A stretch of 41,611 nt of DNA from Acidithrix ferrooxidans (GTDB taxonomy: Bacteria > Actinomycetota > Acidimicrobiia > Acidimicrobiales > Acidimicrobiaceae), in NCBI RefSeq assembly GCF_000949295.1, contig NZ_JXYS01000022.1:1-41611 (forward strand). The letters are read 5' to 3'. Shown here one piece after another: positions 3,672-41,601 of the stretch. Below the pieces are notes generated by a model. It searched no databases, was not told where the DNA came from, and saw nothing but the letters and a program-made list of their open reading frames with translations. How positions within the stretch are numbered: the first letter of the stretch is position 1; every line of letters starts with the position of its first letter. The translations under genes and the position numbers were made by a program.

Positions 3672-4895
3672 TCATCCTGGAATTATAGTTACCGAGTCAC
3701 CGGCCAATCTGTTGCGCTCTCTAAGGAGGAATCCTCTTCCTACGAGCATCAAAAGAGCCGCCACTACACCAGCAATACTCGCCATTGCCCATGCCGTCCC
3801 GAATGAATTATGATCTACTACATAGCCAAAGATCAATGGCCCGACAACGGATCCGACAAAGGCGCCAGATTGAGTAGTTCCAGTAGCGCGACCTTCTGCT
3901 CCTGGGTGGTTGACAATAATTGCAAAATTAAAGACACCGTTCCATCCCCAACCTGCGGCATAACCAATAACGGTAGCAGGAACAATCAGGTATGAAAGTC
4001 CAGTTGCAAATCCTAAATAGCCAATGGATCCAAGACATAACATGGTCGCTATCACGACCAAATGGCGTCCACCGCGCCTATCCGCGAAGTAACCGCCGGC
4101 CAAACGTGAAATCAAACTAGTTGCCGAACCTAGTGCGCCCAACAATCCTGCATTACCTGGTGTCCAGTGTGCATGCACTGCATTCTCAACCAAAAATGCA
4201 CCAAGAGCATTTGCCACTCCAGCGCCGATAGCCATTGCAAGCGTAAGCATCAAAATTGGAGCAAGAGCGATTTTAGGCCGGGTCGCCTTGTCGACCTTTG
4301 CAATTATTCTTTCGCCTTCATGTGGCTCTCTCGGAATGGCGATAACGACCAAAAGGGCAAAGAGCGCGCCCATGGCGTACGCATATCTCCAGCCGATCGT
4401 CAAAGCAACAGAAGGCACCGCTAGACCTGCTAACAGGGTTGCTACTGGGATCGCGGCCTGCTTCACCCCAAGTGCAAAGCCACGGCGACTTTTGTTTACA
4501 GAATGAATGACAAAGAGATTAGCCGCAGGTTGATTAGCACCATTTGCCATACCCGCAATAGCCAAAATAACAATCATGGTAGATATCGAATGCACAAATA
4601 ATGATATCGATGCCATTGACAGACTTGAAACCGACACACAGATACGCATTATCGTGGGTCCGCCTGCACGTTCAGCCAAGGATCCAGAGGCTAAAGAGAC
4701 GATCGCTGCAGATGCGAAGAAGACAGCTACCAAAATACCGAGTTGGCCGATGGAAAATTTAAGACTTTGACGAACCTGCACCGCCAATGCACCGGTAAGA
4801 AATACAGGAAACACAGTTGAAGTGGTCGTTGAGATTGCCACTGCGACTCTGTACCCACCGCGAGAACGAAGTTTTAGGGGTTGAGTCGAAGTCAA
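3672..4895 (-). CDS. MFS transporter, 12-TM, substrate unknown
   Basis: This 407-residue protein has about 12 hydrophobic helices in two six-helix halves split by a charged loop near residues 193-208 (PREPHEGERIIAKVDKATR). The MFS loop 2-3 signature appears as GSLAERAGGPTIMR, with its weaker counterpart ADRRGGRH in the second half. This resembles the NimT/CynX-like branch of the superfamily, but the transported compound cannot be read from the sequence. The start is TTG behind a purine-rich AGGTGGGG. It follows the ferredoxin gene on the same strand after about 220 bases holding palindromes, so it is probably transcribed from its own promoter. Confidence 0.87.
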   Translation of the reverse strand: MTSTQPLKLRSRGGYRVAVAISTTTSTVFPVFLTGALAVQVRQSLKFSIGQLGILVAVFFASAAIVSLASGSLAERAGGPTIMRICVSVSSLSMASISLFVHSISTMIVILAIAGMANGANQPAANLFVIHSVNKSRRGFALGVKQAAIPVATLLAGLAVPSVALTIGWRYAYAMGALFALLVVIAIPREPHEGERIIAKVDKATRPKIALAPILMLTLAMAIGAGVANALGAFLVENAVHAHWTPGNAGLLGALGSATSLISRLAGGYFADRRGGRHLVVIATMLCLGSIGYLGFATGLSYLIVPATVIGYAAGWGWNGVFNFAIIVNHPGAEGRATGTTQSGAFVGSVVGPLIFGYVVDHNSFGTAWAMASIAGVVAALLMLVGRGFLLRERNRLAGDSVTIIPG

Positions 4896-5116: not shown

Positions 5117-5311
5117 CTAGTTGTCTACAATTTTAATTGCGAGCTCTGGACAAAGCTGTACGGCTCTTTTGGCAGATTCAAGATGAACATCTCGAAGTTT
5201 ATCGTTATGAACTAATGGGTAGTGCCACTTGTCGAGCTCCATATACTCCTCCAATAACGCAGCACACGTTCCATGGCCGTGACAGCGCGTAGGATCAATG
5301 ACGATTCTCAT
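5117..5311 (-). CDS. [3Fe-4S]-type ferredoxin
   Basis: This 64-residue protein has three cysteines in the pattern C10-x5-C16 ... C54-P, as in single-cluster [3Fe-4S] ferredoxins of actinobacteria, which often serve cytochrome P450s. The fourth ligand of a [4Fe-4S] cluster is missing, with His/Gly residues in CHGHGTC in its place. It should carry single electrons in the cytosol. Its ATG overlaps the stop of the NuoF-like gene by four bases (ATGA), so the two are translationally coupled and the ferredoxin is most likely the redox partner of that protein. No P450 gene lies in the window. Confidence 0.9.
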   Translation of the reverse strand: MRIVIDPTRCHGHGTCAALLEEYMELDKWHYPLVHNDKLRDVHLESAKRAVQLCPELAIKIVDN

Positions 5312-6684
5312 TTTCCGCCTATGGACGACATGCCGCTATTCATCTTCGGCGTCGGCAGAAGAACCGATCTATGGTTTACGCCAACGACCGAACAGTTCCC
5401 GGACTTATGAAGCTTGATCTCATCTCCAAAGGCGCCTACTGTTGAGCGGACCAATCCGATAACACCATCTGGATGCTGGCAGCCACCTCGATGCTCGACG
5501 AGCGGGATTACACTTCTCAGCTCAGCTATACCTTTTTCAACATTTGAAGAGAGGGCAATACGTGCAAATGCCGTCGAAATCTCGGGGAGACCAAAGACGC
5601 AAGGGCCACACTGTCCAGCGCTCTGTCGTGAAAGATATTCAACAATTCCAGCAGCCTCAACTACTGGACATGTGTCCTTGGATAGGACGCCTATAATTCC
5701 TGCTCCGATATTAAGCTTGCGATCCGCCAAAGTATGATCATCGAAAGAGAAATTAAGATCACTTTCATCTCGGACATTGATCCAACCACCAAAGTAGCCG
5801 CCCACCAAAAGAGCCCTGACGGAGGAAGCTCCGGCCTCCCGTAATAGTGCAGCCACAGAGACACCTGGGTTCACCTCATAGACACCCGGCCTAGCCACCG
5901 AACCGGATATGGTAAGCAGTCTTGTTCCCGAGTCATACCCAACACCACCACTACGATACCAATCGCCTCCAAAGCGAAGTATTAAAGCAGCATTTGCAAA
6001 AGTCTCCACGTTGGATAGTAGCGTTGGCGCCCCTTTAATACCCGAAGTAGCGAGTCGATCTGTTGAAAACCTAGGAAGAGCAGGTCCGCGCTCAATGCGT
6101 CGTACCACAGAGGTCTCCTGACCCGAAACGTATCCAGGTGGGGCCTCTACGACCGAAACGCGTACCTCGTTGATTCCACGATCTCGACGTTCGCGAAGCG
6201 CAGCATTGATTGCTACGTGGGCCTCTTTATCTTTGACGTAAATATATCCTGCTTTAGCGCCCAAGACCTCGGCAATAATGGACATCCCATCTAATACCAA
6301 ATGAGGGTTGGCTCGTAGTAAAGAAGAATCCTTCCTGGACAAAGGTTCTGACTCTGAGCCATTGGCGACGATATAGATAGCCTTCTTGGTTCGAGCGTTC
6401 GCTACAGCATCTATCTTTCGATACATCGGGAAACGCGCACCACCGCGACCGGTAAGGTTCGCAACCCTAAGTGTCTCTATAATCATATTCAAACTAAGCC
6501 CAGTGGGAATTCGGCCATAGTTTGAGATATGTTCAGCCAAAGTAACTCGAGATTTTGATCGGAGTTCGAAATCACCAGCATAGGAAATATCGGGATTGCC
6601 CGTTCTGAGCGAAGTCTCCCAAGATAGGCTCAGGCGACGTGAACCCGACGGTGCCATAATGCTAGTTGAAACGCTTTCATTCAT
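5308..6684 (-). CDS. NuoF-like NAD(P)H/FMN/iron-sulfur oxidoreductase
   Basis: This 458-residue protein resembles the 51-kDa (NuoF) subunit of complex I, but stands outside any nuo operon. It shows the flavin/nucleotide-binding segment TGRGGARFPMYRKID, then VANGSESEPLSRKD in place of the NuoF NxDExEP motif, then KGAPTLLSNVETFANA, an SLBB-like part (GVYEVNPGVSVAALL) and a C-terminal iron-sulfur domain. The N3-type cluster region reads SAGQCGPCVFG (near residue 359) and later RGGCQHPDG (near 398), so three of the usual four cysteines remain and the first is Ala. It likely takes hydride from NAD(P)H and passes electrons to the coupled ferredoxin or to the membrane protein. SD GGAGG lies about 10 bases before ATG. 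Confidence 0.88.
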   Translation of the reverse strand: MNESVSTSIMAPSGSRRLSLSWETSLRTGNPDISYAGDFELRSKSRVTLAEHISNYGRIPTGLSLNMIIETLRVANLTGRGGARFPMYRKIDAVANARTKKAIYIVANGSESEPLSRKDSSLLRANPHLVLDGMSIIAEVLGAKAGYIYVKDKEAHVAINAALRERRDRGINEVRVSVVEAPPGYVSGQETSVVRRIERGPALPRFSTDRLATSGIKGAPTLLSNVETFANAALILRFGGDWYRSGGVGYDSGTRLLTISGSVARPGVYEVNPGVSVAALLREAGASSVRALLVGGYFGGWINVRDESDLNFSFDDHTLADRKLNIGAGIIGVLSKDTCPVVEAAGIVEYLSRQSAGQCGPCVFGLPEISTAFARIALSSNVEKGIAELRSVIPLVEHRGGCQHPDGVIGLVRSTVGAFGDEIKLHKSGNCSVVGVNHRSVLLPTPKMNSGMSSIGGK

Positions 6685-6725
6685 TACTTCAAAACCTCCA
6701 AGATAGTAAAATATCCCAATAACCT

Positions 6726-7862
6726 TTAATGTCCCTCGGAAGATCCTGAGAATTGGAAGGGAGCGCTAAAAGTACCGCTAAAAGTACTGCCGCTTAAGGA
6801 GACATTCATCGAAGCAAGGACCTTGCCGCTAGGCCCGCTCAAAGAGAGAACTAGCGAAGAACCATTTGCTTGGGAGACCGTGCCAACATAGGTGTTGGGT
6901 TTGGCGACTGTACCAAAGTAAGCCGTGCTGGATTGCAATACAAGTGCCCCATTTTGAGGGACACCATTCAACTGCACTTCAACATAGTCCTGCGAGTTGG
7001 CTACCGAACCACGCAATGTCAAAATAACTACACCAGCACTTGTCTGGCTTTGAACCACCGTTCCAGATATCGACCCATTTACCGGCAAAGCAACCGAGGG
7101 GGTCGTAGTGGGTGAAGAAGACGAGATTGCGCCTGTCGTAGCGACCGTTGTTGCACTCAATGAAGTTGACTTAGGCAATATAGAAAAGCTAGACGAGGAC
7201 TTCGCCCACCCTGGCTTTAACGGACCTTGAGATGCCCACGCCAAAATAGCCAGGGGAACTAAACTCAAACTCGCACCGGCCACCAACTTGCGAATTGGCG
7301 TCAAACCGCGCTCGCGCGAAGTTCTGAAGATTCCAAAGGCTCCAACTCCCAAAACAAACGCCACATAGATGATCTCGACGATCTTGATCTTGTCGTCAGA
7401 GCCTGTCCCAAGCGCATGAAAGAGAACCAGGCCAACCACTGCCCAGGACAGATAGTGGATCTTTTTCCATCTGGAGTGTGGAAACTTATGCCTAACGATA
7501 GACGTCGCAATAATGATAAGCATCAAGTCAAAAGATAAAGTCCCAAGGCCGACCCACAGCGGACGGTATTTAGAGACAAAGGGAATAATGGTTGTGGTAA
7601 TTCCAATCTTTACAAAGGGATCCAAGATAGCAGTTACTATATGAACCCCGAGGAAGATAACTGTAGTAAGCGAAAGTCGCCTATGTAGATCTGGCCCGAT
7701 AAACTTGCCAATTCCAGCTGGAGTTGACTTAGTGGCCGTCATTATTCCAAGGATTACAATCGCACCTAAAAGCAAAAGTGCGATAATACCGGTAGCACGC
7801 GTTATGTACCAAAGCAACTTCGGATTAGATACAATTGATCCAATAAGATTAACATGGCTCAT
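6726..7862 (-). CDS. Ferric-reductase-like heme membrane protein with external domain
   Basis: Of its 378 residues, about 1-205 form a ferric-reductase-like transmembrane domain with five or six helices. Its histidines (HRRLS, then FLGVHIV; KKIHYLSW, then VLFHALG) lie in two pairs and would bind two b-type hemes across the membrane. A Ser/Thr-rich linker (about 230-260, with SATTVATTGAISSSSPTTTP) leads to a beta-rich domain of about 115 residues that should face outward. No FAD- or NAD-binding domain is fused, unlike NADPH oxidases, so electrons must come from another protein, plausibly the NuoF-like subunit. The ATG overlaps the apbE stop by four bases. Confidence 0.87.
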   Translation of the reverse strand: MSHVNLIGSIVSNPKLLWYITRATGIIALLLLGAIVILGIMTATKSTPAGIGKFIGPDLHRRLSLTTVIFLGVHIVTAILDPFVKIGITTTIIPFVSKYRPLWVGLGTLSFDLMLIIIATSIVRHKFPHSRWKKIHYLSWAVVGLVLFHALGTGSDDKIKIVEIIYVAFVLGVGAFGIFRTSRERGLTPIRKLVAGASLSLVPLAILAWASQGPLKPGWAKSSSSFSILPKSTSLSATTVATTGAISSSSPTTTPSVALPVNGSISGTVVQSQTSAGVVILTLRGSVANSQDYVEVQLNGVPQNGALVLQSSTAYFGTVAKPNTYVGTVSQANGSSLVLSLSGPSGKVLASMNVSLSGSTFSGTFSAPFQFSGSSEGH

Positions 7863-8815
7863 CGCGCGCCCACCAGTGACGACTGCCCTTTGTTTGATAG
7901 TTCATTACTAGGCCAGCCACCCAAGCCAATTCCAATCCCATCTGCGGTGCGAACCAAAGCTGGAAGTCCAAAACGAGCCAACATCGCAGGAGCCTCATCT
8001 TGGGATAATAGAGCAAAGAGGGTGTAGAAATTGGCCAAAGTAGCACTGGAAGCTGCGACCGTGACACTCGTGTAATCACATTTTATGGGACTCTTGTCGC
8101 CAAGAACAATGTGTTCGCGATCATTTCCAGCCCTATCAATCCAACGTCTTGTGAGCCTAGATGATGTAGCCACCCCACCTAAGACAATAGAAATCAACTG
8201 ACCAGGGGCATCCGGAGAAAGCGAGAGATCGTTTGTGACTTTAATAAGCCAACCGCCTTGAGGAACTTCTCCTTCTACGCGAATATCACCGCCTAGATTG
8301 ACCAAAACGCCTCCACCACCAGCCTCTATGATTTTGATCGCAAGGTTGTCGGCAATAAACGATTTACCCAAACCACCAAAGTCAATTAAAAGTCCAACCG
8401 GACGAGTGATCAAATTATTTTTAGAATCGATCTTGACATCGCCAAAGGTAGCTTCACCACCGTGGGCATTTTGAACAGCAAATTCATAAAGAATAGAATT
8501 GTATGGTGCTACTAACTCAACGAGTTGGTGACCAACAGCGGCATCGATTTTGGACTTGCTCTCGCAATATGCCCAATCGTAGAGCTCCAGCAACTCTAAA
8601 AGTTGTTCTGAAACCGAAACGGTCTCACTTCTAGCGACATTCAGAGTTGTAAGTTCGGAGTCTGAACGATAAAAGCTAGCTACCTTGTCCATCTGGCGAA
8701 TGTAGGAATGCGCGGTAGAGATAGCTAACTTCGAATCAGTTGATTTGTACAGAATTATCTGACAGCTAGTGCCAAGCGCGTCAAAGCTCTCAACGATGAA
8801 GTCGCTCTCAGACAT
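7859..8815 (-). CDS. apbE: FAD:protein FMN transferase ApbE
   Basis: This 318-residue protein matches the ApbE family over its whole length. It has FDALGTSCQI at the start, an MDKVASFYRSDSELTTLN segment, LIDFGGLGKSFIADNLA, GGVLVNLGGDIRVEG and a C-terminal KSPIKCDYTSVTVAASSATLANFYT region, which replaces the family's usual Thr/Ser-rich metal-site loop. ApbE enzymes split FAD and link FMN to a Thr/Ser of extracytoplasmic redox proteins. No signal peptide is obvious, so its location is uncertain. It starts one base after the stop of the preceding small gene, with GGGGGATC as a ribosome site, and overlaps the heme protein gene downstream. Confidence 0.92.
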   Translation of the reverse strand: MSESDFIVESFDALGTSCQIILYKSTDSKLAISTAHSYIRQMDKVASFYRSDSELTTLNVARSETVSVSEQLLELLELYDWAYCESKSKIDAAVGHQLVELVAPYNSILYEFAVQNAHGGEATFGDVKIDSKNNLITRPVGLLIDFGGLGKSFIADNLAIKIIEAGGGGVLVNLGGDIRVEGEVPQGGWLIKVTNDLSLSPDAPGQLISIVLGGVATSSRLTRRWIDRAGNDREHIVLGDKSPIKCDYTSVTVAASSATLANFYTLFALLSQDEAPAMLARFGLPALVRTADGIGIGLGGWPSNELSNKGQSSLVGAR

Positions 8816-8816
8816 C

Positions 8817-9146
8817 TCAAGATCCCCCAGTTGCTGCTACTGGAGCTTGGGCAGCGGGAGCTTGGGCAGCGGGCGTTCCCGCTACGGGAGCCAACGTGGG
8901 CGAGGTGCTATTGAGTGCCGACGAACCCGAAGCAGTAGTTCCAGATGAAGCTCCGGTACTGGCTGAGGTTGACGAGGTTGGCGCAGTTGAGACGCCCGGG
9001 TTAAGCCTAGCTAGAACCAGCGCAAAAGTTGCTGTTACTGCAATTGAGACCGCCACTACGGTACGATGTAACCTAGATGACCGAGCAAGAGCCACTTCAC
9101 CGCTCGATCGTCCTGTTGGTCTGGCTGTTGTGTATGTGACAGACAT
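8817..9146 (-). CDS. Small membrane-anchored Ser/Thr/Ala/Pro-rich protein
   Basis: I chose ATG at 9146 (109 residues) because GGAGG stands seven bases before it; a longer reading from 9173 lacks such a site. A basic N-terminus (about 1-30) is followed by one hydrophobic helix (TVVAVSIAVTATFALVLA) and then a low-complexity outward tail rich in Ser/Thr, ending in repeats of AAQAP. It is the first gene of the redox operon. In related operons this position can hold an anchored FMN-binding protein, but here no FMN_bind domain or DxxSGAT-like flavin site is visible. It could be a scaffold or a worn-down version of such a protein. Confidence 0.72.
   Translation of the reverse strand: MSVTYTTARPTGRSSGEVALARSSRLHRTVVAVSIAVTATFALVLARLNPGVSTAPTSSTSASTGASSGTTASGSSALNSTSPTLAPVAGTPAAQAPAAQAPVAATGGS
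8842..8871 (-). repeat. 15-bp tandem repeat inside the small anchored protein gene
   Basis: Two exact copies of a 15-base unit (8842-8856 and 8857-8871) encode repeated Ala-Gln-Ala-Pro-Ala. Such repeats can expand or contract by slippage and change the tail length in frame. Confidence 0.75.
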
Positions 9147-10020
9147 AAATTTCCTCCATAAACTTCTGTGCAATATGTTGTGCTTGAAGACAAGCGCAAC
9201 GGTTCACTGATAACGTTCTAATTGCTTCAATTGAGATCAAACTGAATAGATCTAAAGCTGCTCTTGGGTCGTGCTGTGAATTCAGTGAGTGTTTCTGCAA
9301 AATCCCTTGTTGAAGTGCATTTATGGCTCCCGCTCGAATGAGACGGATTTCACAGGCTCAATTAGATAACGTCGAAGAACCCGACCGCTTCAAAACGAGC
9401 TTCTCCTAAAGAATCTTTCCTCCAAAGAAAGAGCCAAGGGCCCCATTGTTTCAGAAAGGGCGAGCTGTGCTTCGAAAGATCATTAGATCTGGCGACGACT
9501 CAAAATGAACGAGCAAGATTGCGCTTAAAAGCAAGACAATACTTATATCCAAGATCCAAGGAGGCTAAAGAGCAAAACCGACCATCCTAACATTCATCGA
9601 GAGGGCCTTTATCCAATAATCCCCCGCTTGTACCAGTCTTGATTCAATTCATCGAATAGGGCGATAAACTGCGAACACCTTCGAAAAGGTGCATCATTTT
9701 GAGTGGTCTCACTATTGATCGCGCTGGTGCAACGGTTGAAACCTCTTGTGAATCTATCCAAACCGTCGCCTCAAAATGTCGCAATACTACATCTCAAAGG
9801 TAATGCAGCAAAAACATTACTAGAGGCTCTATTGATCACAGTACTCCCAACTGCCATAATTGCTGAAGCCAACCGAGCTGGCAGTCCTTGAACAAAAAGG
9901 GGAAACACCACCCATAAACAACCAATAATCATTTGTTTGATGGGTATTAATATTTTTCACCCATTAGCGTCAGCAAAGAAGTTAAAATGTCGCTAAGATT
10001 TTCAGAACGTAAATTCGATT
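9147..10020. other. Gene-free region upstream of the redox operon
   Basis: It contains the leader of the minus-strand operon, including a small hairpin (GCTTG-AAGA-CAAGC, 9182-9195), and the upstream flank of the tRNA gene. Short open frames here show no domain. I could not identify a convincing promoter. Confidence 0.5.
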
Positions 10021-10107
10021 GTCGGAGTGGCGGAATAGGCAGACGCGCTAGCTTGAGGGGCTAGTGCCCGCAAGGGCGTGGGGGTTCAAGTCCCCCCTCC
10101 GACACCA
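10021..10107 (+). tRNA. tRNA-Leu, anticodon GAG
   Basis: The acceptor arms GTCGGAG (10021-10027) and CTCCGAC pair perfectly, and CCA is encoded at the end. The anticodon stem GCTAG/CTAG-C frames the loop TTGAGGG with anticodon GAG. A long variable arm (GTGCCCGCAAGGGCGT) marks a class II tRNA, and the T-arm reads GGGGG-TTCAAGT-CCCCC. It stands alone. Directly behind it CACCA-AATCA-TGGTG followed by CTTTT may help end transcription. Confidence 0.96.
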
Positions 10108-11603
10108 AATCATGGTGCTTTTAGCATCGGTTCAAAATAGCTTTTTGTCTTGGTGAATCTCCTTTGAGTTCAAATACTTCAATCTCGCCCAGGCCCATAT
10201 GGTTGCCATTCATACAATAGTGTCACGCCAGAAACAGCATCGCACTAGTAACTGGGCGTTCGACCTTCGAAATCTTACTTAAGCATTTGGTCTTTTAGAT
10301 TTGGCCCTTTGCACTGGCATAGATACTTGCGACTCTTGGTAGGCAAGTTATTTAAGTGCCACAAGATATTCATGGTAAACAATTCGGCAAGCCAATAAGT
10401 GAACTCGAAATTACCTTTGAAAATTGCTAGGCTGATTTCAACCAAAGGATTACCAAATCTATGGCAATCTATGATGCCTTGGAAGTTCCATTTGACGATC
10501 GAGGTGTGCGCCACGAGCAAACAACCTCGTCGAAAAAATTACCCAAAAACTAAAGTTGCCAGAGAAGTCTTGCACATCATTTCGAATCCTCATGAAGTTG
10601 TTCAAAGTTGCCTTCATCACCCTCAAAAAGCTTTAGTTCAAACGCTAGAATCCATAGTCGATGCATCCTCCCGGAGCGCTTTGAAGTATTCCCGAGAGAG
10701 TCGCACGAGTGTTGACAAAACAAGTCGAATTCGATTCCAATCATCCTCTTCTAAGGTTGCTGATCATCCATTAGAGCATTCACAAAAAGAATTCTTTCGA
10801 AAATTGCGTTATCAATCGTTGCAATTGCAAAAGTATCTTCAAAAAGAAATAGTTCTATTTTCCATATTTGCTAATATCGGTAATCAGCTTCATAGGTCAT
10901 AAGTCATAAATAGAGGCAAGCGGCTTGTCTGTCGCGAGCACATCACTACGATAAGCAATTAGACACCATTTAAACAAATCATCTTCGATGTCGTAATGCA
11001 TCAACCTTTATAGTCTGCAAAAAGCGCAAATACAAAAGATACCGCGCAACTCTCCTGTAAGTAATCGAAAATTTCCTCAAAAAACAAAATGAATATTGCT
11101 TTGATGATCGCACAATGCAAGACCCAATTTTGATGAAATTGATTGCGATAGATAGATCAATCAAATAAAACATTATACTGAGATTAGCTAGTCATAAACT
11201 AACTTATTCTTACAATAATAATCGATGCTAGCCTTCGATTATCAAAATTCCACGAAACATACTAAATGCAATAATAATGTAACTTCGAGAACAAACCTAT
11301 AAATATCGATGACAAATCCGTATGCAAGTCAAAATCCAAGGTATCAACATAGAGAACCTATACAGCTAGTTTTTTAATCCGATTCTGCTTATAAATAAGT
11401 AAGGTTATCGATGCTTTGGGGAAAAGGTTTCTGTACGAAATTTTCACACTTATCATCTATCAGCCAACTTGATAATGACTCCCAATACTTTTAGATCAAG
11501 ATCAATGATTGAAAGCGCCTAACTCTGTATGAGATATTCTATCACTTTCAAAATACAAAACTAACCCGGTAAAACTTATTTGAATTGAAGATCGCGCTCA
11601 AAG
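10108..11603. other. Gene-free, AT-rich region of about 1.5 kb
   Basis: An open frame of 167 codons (10399-10902, plus) and shorter ones on the other strand exist, but none shows a domain, a ribosome site or a plausible protein composition. The last ~500 bases before the c-di-GMP gene are very AT-rich. No RNA gene is recognised. Confidence 0.5.
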
Positions 11604-40323: not shown

Positions 40324-41601
40324 TTACGAACCAAGTGCGCTAGAGATCTGCGTTGTCACCGGGGTAACAGTAGCTAGTAGTGACCAGTCAGGCTTACCAG
40401 CCGCCAAGAGCGCTCTGATTCTAAAGTTCGCAAAGTTCGTCATCCCAAAGGCGATGCGCTTAATCCGCTTAATGAGGTTGTTCATCGACTCTGTCGGTCC
40501 ATTGGTCACGAAGGACGTGTGCCAGGCCAGGATCTCATCATGCCAGCTTTTCAAGGTTCTCCCAAGTAGTTGGACCTCGGGGGGTCGTTGGTTGTCGGTG
40601 AAGTCACTGATAAGAGCATCGAGGTGGTCACTAGCGAGTTTTGGGTCACGATAGGTATAGAGCTCTCGTAAGGACTCCTTGGCTCTCCATGCGGTAGCTA
40701 CCTCGTTGTCTGGGTCACCTAGTTCAAGTAGGTGAGTAAGTTTGGCGTTGGCACCCTCGGTGAGTCTCTCCTTGGCCATAGTCAGGAGTCGCCGGATGCG
40801 ATAGAGGGGATCCCCACCCCTGCCTCTGTGACCAAGGATGTTCTGTTGTACCCTTCTTCTCACCTCATCAAGGCGAGTGTTGGCCAGCTTTATCAGGTGG
40901 AATGGATCGGCTACCATGGTAGCGTTTGGTAACGCCTCTCGAAAGACCGCCCGGTAAGAACCAGCTAGATCAAGAGTTCCCCACTTGATATCATCACGCC
41001 ACTCCTTGGACTGACTGGCTATCCACTTCTTTGGCTCCTTTCCCTCTCTACCAGGCACGACATCAAGAAGGGTTGGACTCGTAACGTCCACGATTGAGGT
41101 AGACCACTTCTGGGTCCGATAGCGACCCTCGCGACAAAACAAGGTCTCATCTAATCCGAGTGCACGAACCTTACCAAAGCGACTTGGATCCTCTACGAGG
41201 GGAGTCCCATAGGCAATGACAGCGTCATTGATCGTGTGCCAATCACAATCGAGCTCTCTGGCTACCGATGACACCGATCGACCATCTCTACCAACCACTC
41301 GGGTTGCGAATCTAGCTGCCCTATCGGTGAGCTTGAGTCTTGGAGCTGCGATCCTAGTGTCCACGTCACTCCACGACGGGGCGGAACAGTTCCCATCCTT
41401 GCACTCCCACCTGCGTTTGTGCCAGATGAGTCTGACGGCACGGCCAAAGCTTTGTAGATCAATCAGCTCTACTAGTGAGCCTCCCTTGGAATAACTCATC
41501 CCATTACATACTGGGCATTTTGGTCGTTCGCCTCGACACTCGATATGGACCCGAAGGGGTGTCTTTGAACCTTGGTCACCCAGATCCTCGATGCCAATCA
41601 A
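40324..41601 (-). CDS. ISL3-family transposase (5' end at or beyond the window edge)
   Basis: This protein of at least 425 residues has an N-terminal zinc ribbon (RPKCPVCNG and CKDGNCSAP), an HTH part (SVSSVARELDCDWHTINDAV), and the DDE core with LGLDETLF, DLAGSYRAVF, MVADPFHLIKLAN and the typical closing TNGPTESMNNLIKRIKRIAF, then GMTNFANFRIR. These are the marks of the ISL3 family. The visible start is TTG at 41601, but the frame stays open to the window edge and family members usually begin a few residues earlier, so the true start may be outside. No frameshift or stop breaks the gene. Its codons are more GC-rich than those of its neighbours, as expected for a mobile element. Confidence 0.93.
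   Translation of the reverse strand: MIGIEDLGDQGSKTPLRVHIECRGERPKCPVCNGMSYSKGGSLVELIDLQSFGRAVRLIWHKRRWECKDGNCSAPSWSDVDTRIAAPRLKLTDRAARFATRVVGRDGRSVSSVARELDCDWHTINDAVIAYGTPLVEDPSRFGKVRALGLDETLFCREGRYRTQKWSTSIVDVTSPTLLDVVPGREGKEPKKWIASQSKEWRDDIKWGTLDLAGSYRAVFREALPNATMVADPFHLIKLANTRLDEVRRRVQQNILGHRGRGGDPLYRIRRLLTMAKERLTEGANAKLTHLLELGDPDNEVATAWRAKESLRELYTYRDPKLASDHLDALISDFTDNQRPPEVQLLGRTLKSWHDEILAWHTSFVTNGPTESMNNLIKRIKRIAFGMTNFANFRIRALLAAGKPDWSLLATVTPVTTQISSALGS

Follow-up and report, generated by a model that had tools for sequence, protein, structure and literature searches.

A five-gene operon of Acidithrix ferrooxidans with a candidate domain-less flavin carrier for a proposed transmembrane electron chain

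When a flavin transferase is encoded in one operon with a NAD(P)H-oxidising protein and a heme membrane protein, the question arises of which protein the transferase loads and where the electrons go. Such an operon lies in the 41,611-nucleotide stretch of DNA that we analysed (the window: positions 1 to 41,611 of contig NZ_JXYS01000022.1, from the 4,019,867-base genome of Acidithrix ferrooxidans), where genes for a short membrane protein (P0001), an ApbE-family protein (P0002), an MsrQ-like membrane protein (P0003), a NuoF-like protein (P0004) and a ferredoxin (P0005) follow one another. A sequence-only reading of the window had offered two alternatives, an outward flow of electrons or the assembly of extracytoplasmic flavoproteins. 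These are probably one system, in which ApbE would load the outer carrier of the chain itself. The carrier would be P0001, which that reading included among the five genes without interpreting it.

In the explanation that we favour, the operon would encode a single NAD(P)H-driven transmembrane electron chain. NAD(P)H would reduce the NuoF-like protein, with its flavin mononucleotide (FMN) and Fe-S centres, and from there electrons would reach the ferredoxin, then the two hemes of the MsrQ/STEAP-like protein and finally P0001. This last protein would be a membrane-anchored disordered tether with the terminal motif [ST]-x-[GA]-S, and ApbE would join FMN to the final Ser of this motif by a phosphoester bond; the flavin would then swing on the tether and move electrons from the outer heme to an extracytoplasmic acceptor. 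We infer the direction of the electrons, the flavinylation of the tail and the acceptor from sequence comparisons, and we give this explanation as a whole a chance barely above evens.

The anchored tail and its terminal motif

The operon was compared in two sets of relatives. For the first, 296 genomes of the same class were searched with the membrane protein; 133 matched, and 40 regions around the best matches were compared. For the second, a scan of named genomes with a NuoF alignment found at least 544 relatives, of which the 80 nearest loci were kept and annotated with hidden Markov models. Tails were called by hydrophobicity and composition, and not by their terminal motif, upstream of the ApbE gene or, where that gene is out of line, upstream of the MsrQ gene.

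P0001 has a K/R-rich N-terminus, one membrane helix at about residues 29-47, a tether of S, T, P and A and the C-terminus TGGS. A short one-helix low-complexity tail was called in 97 of 107 loci (L045 and L135 are one record counted as two loci), and among the other ten we saw tails by eye at L057 and L064 and the start of a tail at L115 and L130. The tether is 43-238 residues long, with a median of 74. K and R are more numerous before the helix than after it in 96 of the 97 tails, a charge pattern of the N-in/C-out kind, and the tether should therefore lie outside the membrane.

The end of the tail is far more constant than the tether that leads to it. Ser is the last residue in 81 of the 97 tails, where 21.9 would be expected, and [ST]-x-[GA]-S closes 74 of them, where the composition of each tail predicts 2.2. 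Entropy is about 2.5-3.5 bits along the tether, does not exceed 2.2 bits at any of the four final positions and reaches 1.1-1.5 bits at positions -1, -2 and -4; position -3 is free and holds G, S, R, T or H. The same motif ends only one of 288 other open reading frames (ORFs) of the operons (ApbE 0/60, MsrQ 0/78, NuoF 1/82, ferredoxin 0/68) and 43 of the 2,484 long ORFs of these loci. When the 93 tails that have a NuoF partner were grouped by NuoF linkage at 60%, the motif was found in all members of 39 clusters, in none of 10 and in some members of one, out of 50 clusters. The terminal motif is an amino-acid signal and not merely the shared descent of close relatives.

The signal resembles the target of ApbE, D-x-x-[ST]-G-A-[ST], of which seven residues suffice and whose last residue receives the FMN (PMC12052999). 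Tags of this kind perform best when placed at either terminus of a protein; the motif can nearly do without its Asp, and a change of Gly to Ala or of Ala to Val reduces flavinylation to about half (PMC12052999). Seven of the 97 tails, from six Streptomyces and Actinobacteria bacterium OV320, end in exactly D-x-x-S-G-A-S, the minimal ApbE motif, the Streptomyces tails as DSTSGAS. Other ends are ATGGS in the window, MASGGS in its nearest relatives, PTGGS in L032 and VSRGS in three of five Mycolicibacterium. A strict [ST]GA[ST] was considered as the invariant motif and proved too restrictive, the tails being better described by [ST]-x-[GA]-S. The 23 exceptions comprise ten tails with a C-terminal Cys pair, five with [ST]G.[ST] near the end, of which three run on for some residues after it, three ending in x[GA]S and five others (two of them SGQS); L033, L034 and L046 keep [ST]G[GS]T ahead of extra C-terminal residues. 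The Cys pairs belong to nine tails of genus g14, in which a C-x3-[PA]-S-G-x3 or 4-C loop and one further residue replace the motif, and to L124. As a separate observation, a histidine kinase pattern lies upstream in all ten of the g14 loci L051-L057, L059, L060 and L065.

The operon, its redox proteins and its distribution

The operon lies on the minus strand and runs from position 9146 down to 5117 (Table 1). Neighbouring genes share four bases at 5308-5311 and again at 7859-7862, and one base, 8816, separates P0001 from ApbE, exactly as described in the sequence-only reading; 41 bases separate the MsrQ-like from the NuoF-like gene. Where that reading had the genes "surely expressed together", their anatomy supports the weaker statement that co-expression is likely. 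Pfam E-values are 1.9e-31 for ApbE, 1.8e-32 for Complex1_51K, 7.1e-12 for NADH_4Fe-4S and 6.3e-12 for Fer4_15. P0002 scores 110 bits against PF02424 (cut-off 25.6), and P0003 scores 27.2 bits against Ferric_reduct (cut-off 28), rising to 29.3 bits in the whole-genome profile search. An Rfam scan for riboswitches at the gathering threshold returned tRNA alone. Promoter-like sites stand at the shuffle level (5 found, mean of 5.9 in shuffles); terminator-like sites (8, against 4.9 in shuffles) were not used for any conclusion.

Table 1. Positions of the operon genes and of two parts of their products in the window
Feature	Position	Strand	Basis or remark
P0001, short membrane protein, 109 aa	8817-9146	minus	ATG start; GGAGG at 9153-9157, 6 nt upstream; no Pfam or NCBIfam match
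P0002, ApbE family (FAD:protein FMN transferase family), 318 aa	7859-8815	minus	Pfam ApbE
P0003, MsrQ-like/STEAP-like, predicted two-heme membrane protein with outer beta barrel	6726-7862	minus	Pfam Ferric_reduct, His residues, AlphaFold2
P0004, NuoF-like, FMN/NAD part, weak SLBB match, Fe-S region	5308-6684	minus	Pfam, motifs
P0005, ferredoxin, 64 aa, Cys 10, 16 and 54, probably [3Fe-4S]	5117-5311	minus	Pfam Fer4_15
Terminal TGGS of P0001 (codons ACT GGG GGA TCT), proposed relaxed flavinylation motif	8820-8831	minus	Last Ser as putative acceptor
Optional outer barrel region of P0003, possibly 8-stranded and antiparallel	6729-7085 (residues 260-378)	minus	AlphaFold2 model

The proteins behind the tail have the features of a chain from NAD(P)H to the outer face of the membrane. 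P0004 retains the GRGGxxFP, ExEPxSxKD, Yx-x-GxE and N-x-ET segments of the flavin/NAD site, and its best PDB profile match is Nqo1 of complex I. Family and motifs thus argue for an input of the NAD(P)H type, as the sequence-only reading had it, and against the possibility it had raised that P0004 binds neither flavin nor NAD(P)H. In the window Gln189 stands where 90% of relatives have Glu. The Fe-S region differs from that of complex I: the four-Cys site SCGxCxxC...C is absent, with Ala in place of its first Cys, and all 30 aligned sequences keep Cys 339, 359, 362, 402 and 431. In this family the Fe-S Cys set is rearranged, with the invariant Cys339 and the Ala together in 30 of 30. In P0005, Cys 10, 16 and 54 are kept in 24 of 24 aligned rows, and the Streptomyces [3Fe-4S] ferredoxin Fd68 has Cys at the same positions (PMC4048220); the cluster of P0005 is probably [3Fe-4S], in line with the carrier that had been proposed.

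His 60, 74, 136 and 149 of P0003 are shared by the window and all 22 aligned relatives (23 of 23 sequences), which points to the two-heme membrane conduit that had been read from the window alone. The AlphaFold2 model (mean pLDDT, the predicted local distance difference test, of 83) also places a beta domain where an outward one had been predicted: a barrel at residues 261-367, with pLDDT of 88-96 per ten-residue block. This barrel is optional, present in 7 of 24 aligned relatives and found outside the window's clade too. Comparison of the membrane part by VIA-align gave Z 13.3 with SpNOX 8qta (root-mean-square deviation, rmsd, 3.2; 154 aligned), Z 12.2 with cytochrome b561 4o7g and Z 11.8 with STEAP4 6hcy, where in helical proteins Z below about 13 may reflect a common arrangement; Foldseek found no match to P0003 at E <= 0.001. 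The barrel aligned with PloI4 7x81 (Z 9.8, rmsd 3.8, 112 aligned) and with pyocyanin demethylase (Z 9.2), several unrelated barrels scoring close behind PloI4, and its modelled likeness to AOC-type barrels is a match of shape only.

The order ApbE-MsrQ-NuoF-ferredoxin was found in 26 of the 40 class regions, which are the best matches of the membrane protein, and in 59 of the 80 named loci, which are the best matches of the NuoF-like protein. The complete five-gene order occurs in 55 of the 80. Judged by record title, the loci are nearly all from Actinomycetota, with Mycolicibacterium, Streptomyces, Rhodococcus, Arthrobacter, Sinomonas and Actinoplanes among the genera. The closest relatives among these 80 are two metagenome-assembled genomes (MAGs), L072 and L073, with NuoF identity of 66-68%; L121 and L140, filed under Chloroflexi/Thermomicrobiales, have no MsrQ within the stretch examined, and G267, a genome of the window's own family, had no match to the membrane protein in the profile search of the 296 class genomes. 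Conservation of gene order exceeds chance, and the system is common to actinobacteria in general; related genomes keep the families together, a point on which the sequence-only reading had staked its proposal. A two-component system as a core feature was rejected, since a regular expression for a histidine kinase matched in just 17 of 114 loci, most of which belong to one family.

This distribution bears on the acceptor. The sequence-only reading had tied the operon to iron-metabolising species and named Fe(III), and A. ferrooxidans and Acidimicrobium are indeed named as iron reducers (PMC8790237). The operon occurs in Streptomyces, Mycolicibacterium, Rhodococcus and Arthrobacter, however, so iron metabolism is not the common denominator, and the distribution does not support Fe(III) as the specific acceptor. 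Iron as an acceptor is possible but not indicated.

Two further genes of the window may be recorded here. A gene for an MFS-like transporter, named by eye, lies downstream of the operon on the same strand (3672-4895) and also in the nearest relative (L072:5428-6651). At 40324-41601, on the minus strand, an ORF resembles an insertion sequence (IS) transposase by eye.

The transferase and its candidate substrate

The FMN_bind domain is scarce around these operons. Pfam found none among the five operon proteins, and profile searches of 38 class genomes (G267 and 37 others in which the membrane protein had a match) and of 20 of the 80 named genomes placed no FMN_bind gene inside an operon. Eighteen of the 38 class genomes and 13 of the 20 named genomes have none at all; in the other 20 class genomes it is not beside the operon and shares its contig only in G014 (the genome of L032), about 330 kb away. 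A regular-expression screen for FMN_bind was a poor tool, since it missed genes at L104 and L137 that are described below and gave scattered, unconfirmed hits (for example L079 2420-2884, upstream of ApbE). The idea that P0001 is a decayed FMN_bind protein was rejected, as it has no FMN_bind match and the profile searches place none inside an operon. The sole FMN_bind match of the window genome is on contig C53, in a separate cluster with its own ApbE and ferric reductase. The linker of this protein (L001:1165-1746) holds three direct SGAT repeats (ASSGATTTT), and here the tether itself might be flavinylated several times besides the domain.

Exactly one ApbE and no FMN_bind were found in 19 genomes (ten of the same class and nine of the 20 named genomes, for which completeness is not given). 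NqrB/RnfD and DUF2271 were absent from all 19, in a search that left out DUF3570, Flavodoxin_4 and FMN-reductase substrates. Loading of the tail would explain why ApbE is retained in at least 19 genomes without three known substrate families.

Tails also accompany ApbE and MsrQ in a sister type of cluster, where NuoF is not next in line. We read 26 such regions. Six had been compared already and 20 were additional, 19 of these centred on further MsrQ-like matches and the last on a different ApbE of the window genome. A tail is present in 24 (in L160 NuoF is on the opposite strand) and none was found in L154 and L162; 15 of the 24 tails end in the motif, six have it before 1-3 extra residues and three have neither. 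It seems that this class has in the tail carrier a general alternative to FMN_bind. The window genome has a second cluster of ApbE and an MsrQ-like gene on contig C18 (L171:2950-5800), with two consecutive anchored low-complexity proteins, the second of which ends TTRAS-LLG; its ApbE has, by eye, Glu at the metal-Asp position.

The presence of an ApbE-family gene supports the link to protein flavinylation that the sequence-only reading drew. In calling P0002 an enzyme that fixes FMN onto proteins, that reading had the family right; the metal site is altered, and this is the weakest point of the case. P0002 keeps K151 and H235, the latter in an HH-I-x-DP segment whose His is invariant in 17 ApbEs, and has N262 in place of the Asp of the ADxxxT segment of its PDB relatives. 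This Asp and the Thr four residues on are ligands of magnesium. The pair is Asn/Leu in the window and Asn/Thr in most of the subfamily, and ApbE needs magnesium (PMC12052999). P0002 has lost both the Thr ligand and DPxTG. Because its metal site is degraded, flavinylation in the window is less sure than in the family, and the ApbE copies elsewhere in the genome (on C18 and C53) might act in trans.

Several further observations count against flavinylation of the tail. Asn replaces the Mg-Asp in 89 of 94 aligned ApbEs (four of the rest have Glu and are of the sister type, one has Asp and is of the FMN_bind type), and the PDB ApbEs compared have Asp; Thr is Leu in the window, L032, L040, L072 and L073, and DPxTG is lost in all of these but L040. 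P0002 has no signal peptide seen by eye and looks cytosolic while the tail would lie outside, and loading would therefore have to precede membrane insertion or export. Thirteen of the 80 named loci have a tail ahead of MsrQ but lack an in-line ApbE, and a genome search of L089, a partial 2.8-Mb MAG whose tail ends AHGS, found no ApbE. The nine g14 tails and L124 end in a Cys loop, yet the g14 operon ApbE keeps His, DPxTG and Thr. The strict D-x-x-[ST]-G-A-[ST] is absent from the window, where P0001 ends AATGGS, that is TGGS and not [ST]GA[ST], with the Asp missing; Ser is flavinylated 10-55% less than Thr (PMC12052999). Among the 19 genomes with a lone ApbE the tail has the motif in 11, lacks it in six (L049, L051, L056, L059, L065, L101) and was not seen in two. 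Arthrobacter L104 and L137 each have an FMN_bind gene, next to a second MsrQ-like gene and about 3.7 kb downstream of the gene for ferredoxin. Finally, flavinylation of the tail is a prediction from sequence. The degraded ApbE site, the g14 Cys loops, L089, the cytosolic ApbE and this last point lead us to put the flavin-tether model at about one half. In L104 and L137 the second MsrQ-like gene and the FMN_bind gene stand at about locus 8900-10300, so that the tail-type and FMN_bind-type carriers are neighbours there.

Three other explanations were weighed. The tail may not be flavinylated: its C-terminus would be a docking point for the membrane protein or for some outer partner, as an assembly subunit or a cell-wall link, and ApbE would modify another protein, or would cleave or bind flavin adenine dinucleotide (FAD) and supply FMN to the NuoF-like protein. 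This would account for the altered metal site, for tails that stay beside MsrQ in the 13 loci with no ApbE in line, for the free position -3, which is unlike the known ApbE motif, and for the Cys loop that stands in place of the motif in g14. It leaves unexplained the seven exact ApbE motifs, the [ST]G[GS]T kept before the extension in L033, L034 and L046, the ApbE encoded by 19 of the 20 named genomes searched and the lone-ApbE genomes without the three known substrate families, and we consider it unlikely, if deserving of attention.

A second explanation confines the doubt to the window's acidophile clade, which would have lost flavinylation; ApbE would be a decaying or FAD-binding relic and the hemes would pass electrons out directly, perhaps to Fe(III), with the barrel as a ligand or docking site. 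The loss of Thr and, except in L040, of DPxTG would fit such a history, as would an acidic, iron-rich habitat (PMC8790237) and an ApbE identity of 46-48% between the window and the MAGs L072 and L073, whose NuoF identity is so much higher. Faster decay of the window ApbE is a weak argument, however: its 48% compares with 58-69% in six other pairs at NuoF identity of 62-67%, yet is not exceptional among the 90 pairs whose NuoF identity is 55-75%, where ApbE identity spreads around 56.8 +/- 8.8 with a minimum of 42.7. The P0002 ORF is intact, the tail end is kept in the clade (TGGS, SGGS; no tail was called at L040) and the barrel is not peculiar to the clade, so that a loss of this kind appears improbable. 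The third explanation, that the terminal GGS merely reflects the next gene, through its ribosome site or its overlap with the tail, could draw on the 44 of 68 tails that overlap the next start (by signature) and on GGAGG-like codons that can encode GG, and it was rejected as hardly credible on Shine-Dalgarno-like strings in just 18 of 74, on Ser and Gly codons that vary (AGC and AGT included), on the CAA used in SGQS and on the single motif among the 288 control ends.

Relation to known systems

Should the flavin tether be real, it would represent a new and very small type of redox carrier and of ApbE substrate, and Streptomyces, Mycolicibacterium and others would have an unrecognised NADH-driven route for exporting electrons. 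There is an even chance, in our judgement, that the P0001 family is a natural domain-less covalent flavoprotein, with a helix anchor, a disordered tether, FMN on its C-terminal Ser and a dedicated Asn-type ApbE. In a large part of Actinomycetota this flavoprotein would then take the place of FMN_bind as the outer, mobile carrier of MsrQ-type chains.

The proteins of the chain have familiar relatives. The membrane part of P0003 shares the NOX/STEAP/cytochrome b561 fold with SpNOX, b561 and STEAP4; it differs in having no fused flavin reductase domain and in the optional outer barrel of its family. P0004 shares the Complex1_51K and NADH_4Fe-4S regions with complex I NuoF and the HydB type of bifurcating hydrogenases. 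It departs from complex I NuoF in the Ala at the first Cys of SCGxC and in the invariant Cys339 and Cys431, and the HydB-type relative 9bov_B in the PDB has Cys aligned with both.

As a whole, the operon has the anatomy of an MsrQ-like flavinylation system, in which a PF01794 two-heme protein is clustered with apbE, and here a partner predicted to oxidise NAD(P)H joins them. A survey of flavinylation in eLife in 2021 (PMC8238504) describes MsrQ-like clusters with apbE and a six-helix two-heme PF01794 protein, broadly in Actinobacteria, and a NuoF-like PF10589 protein in 31 of 1797 gene clusters. In that survey a gene with an FMN-binding domain is typical of the MsrQ-like clusters without being obligatory, whereas in our operon a domain-less tail takes its place. 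The survey dropped ApbE and FMN-binding genes without signal peptides or lipidation sites (PMC8238504), and its filter would therefore remove clusters of the present type.

The tail itself can be set beside three kinds of ApbE substrate. The FMN_bind carrier of C53 (L001), of the NqrC/RnfG type, likewise has a membrane anchor, an S/T-rich linker, its own ApbE and its own ferric-reductase-like protein; P0001 has no FMN_bind domain, just anchor, tether and terminal motif. Flavodoxin_4, FMN reductase, DUF2271 and NqrB/RnfD proteins (mSystems 2024, PMC11334425) have the acceptor residue in a motif, as we propose for the tail, and in the FMN reductases there is a C-terminal extension; all of these are folded domains, and the available part of that paper describes no bare tether. 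In the engineered flavin tag a seven-residue terminal motif is enough for ApbE (PMC12052999), and the tail would be the natural counterpart of this artificial device. Our literature search, which covered open-access papers and left subscription papers and supplements outside its reach, found no description of a domain-less tail. The system belongs to the known ApbE/MsrQ systems, and its domain-less tail is apparently new.

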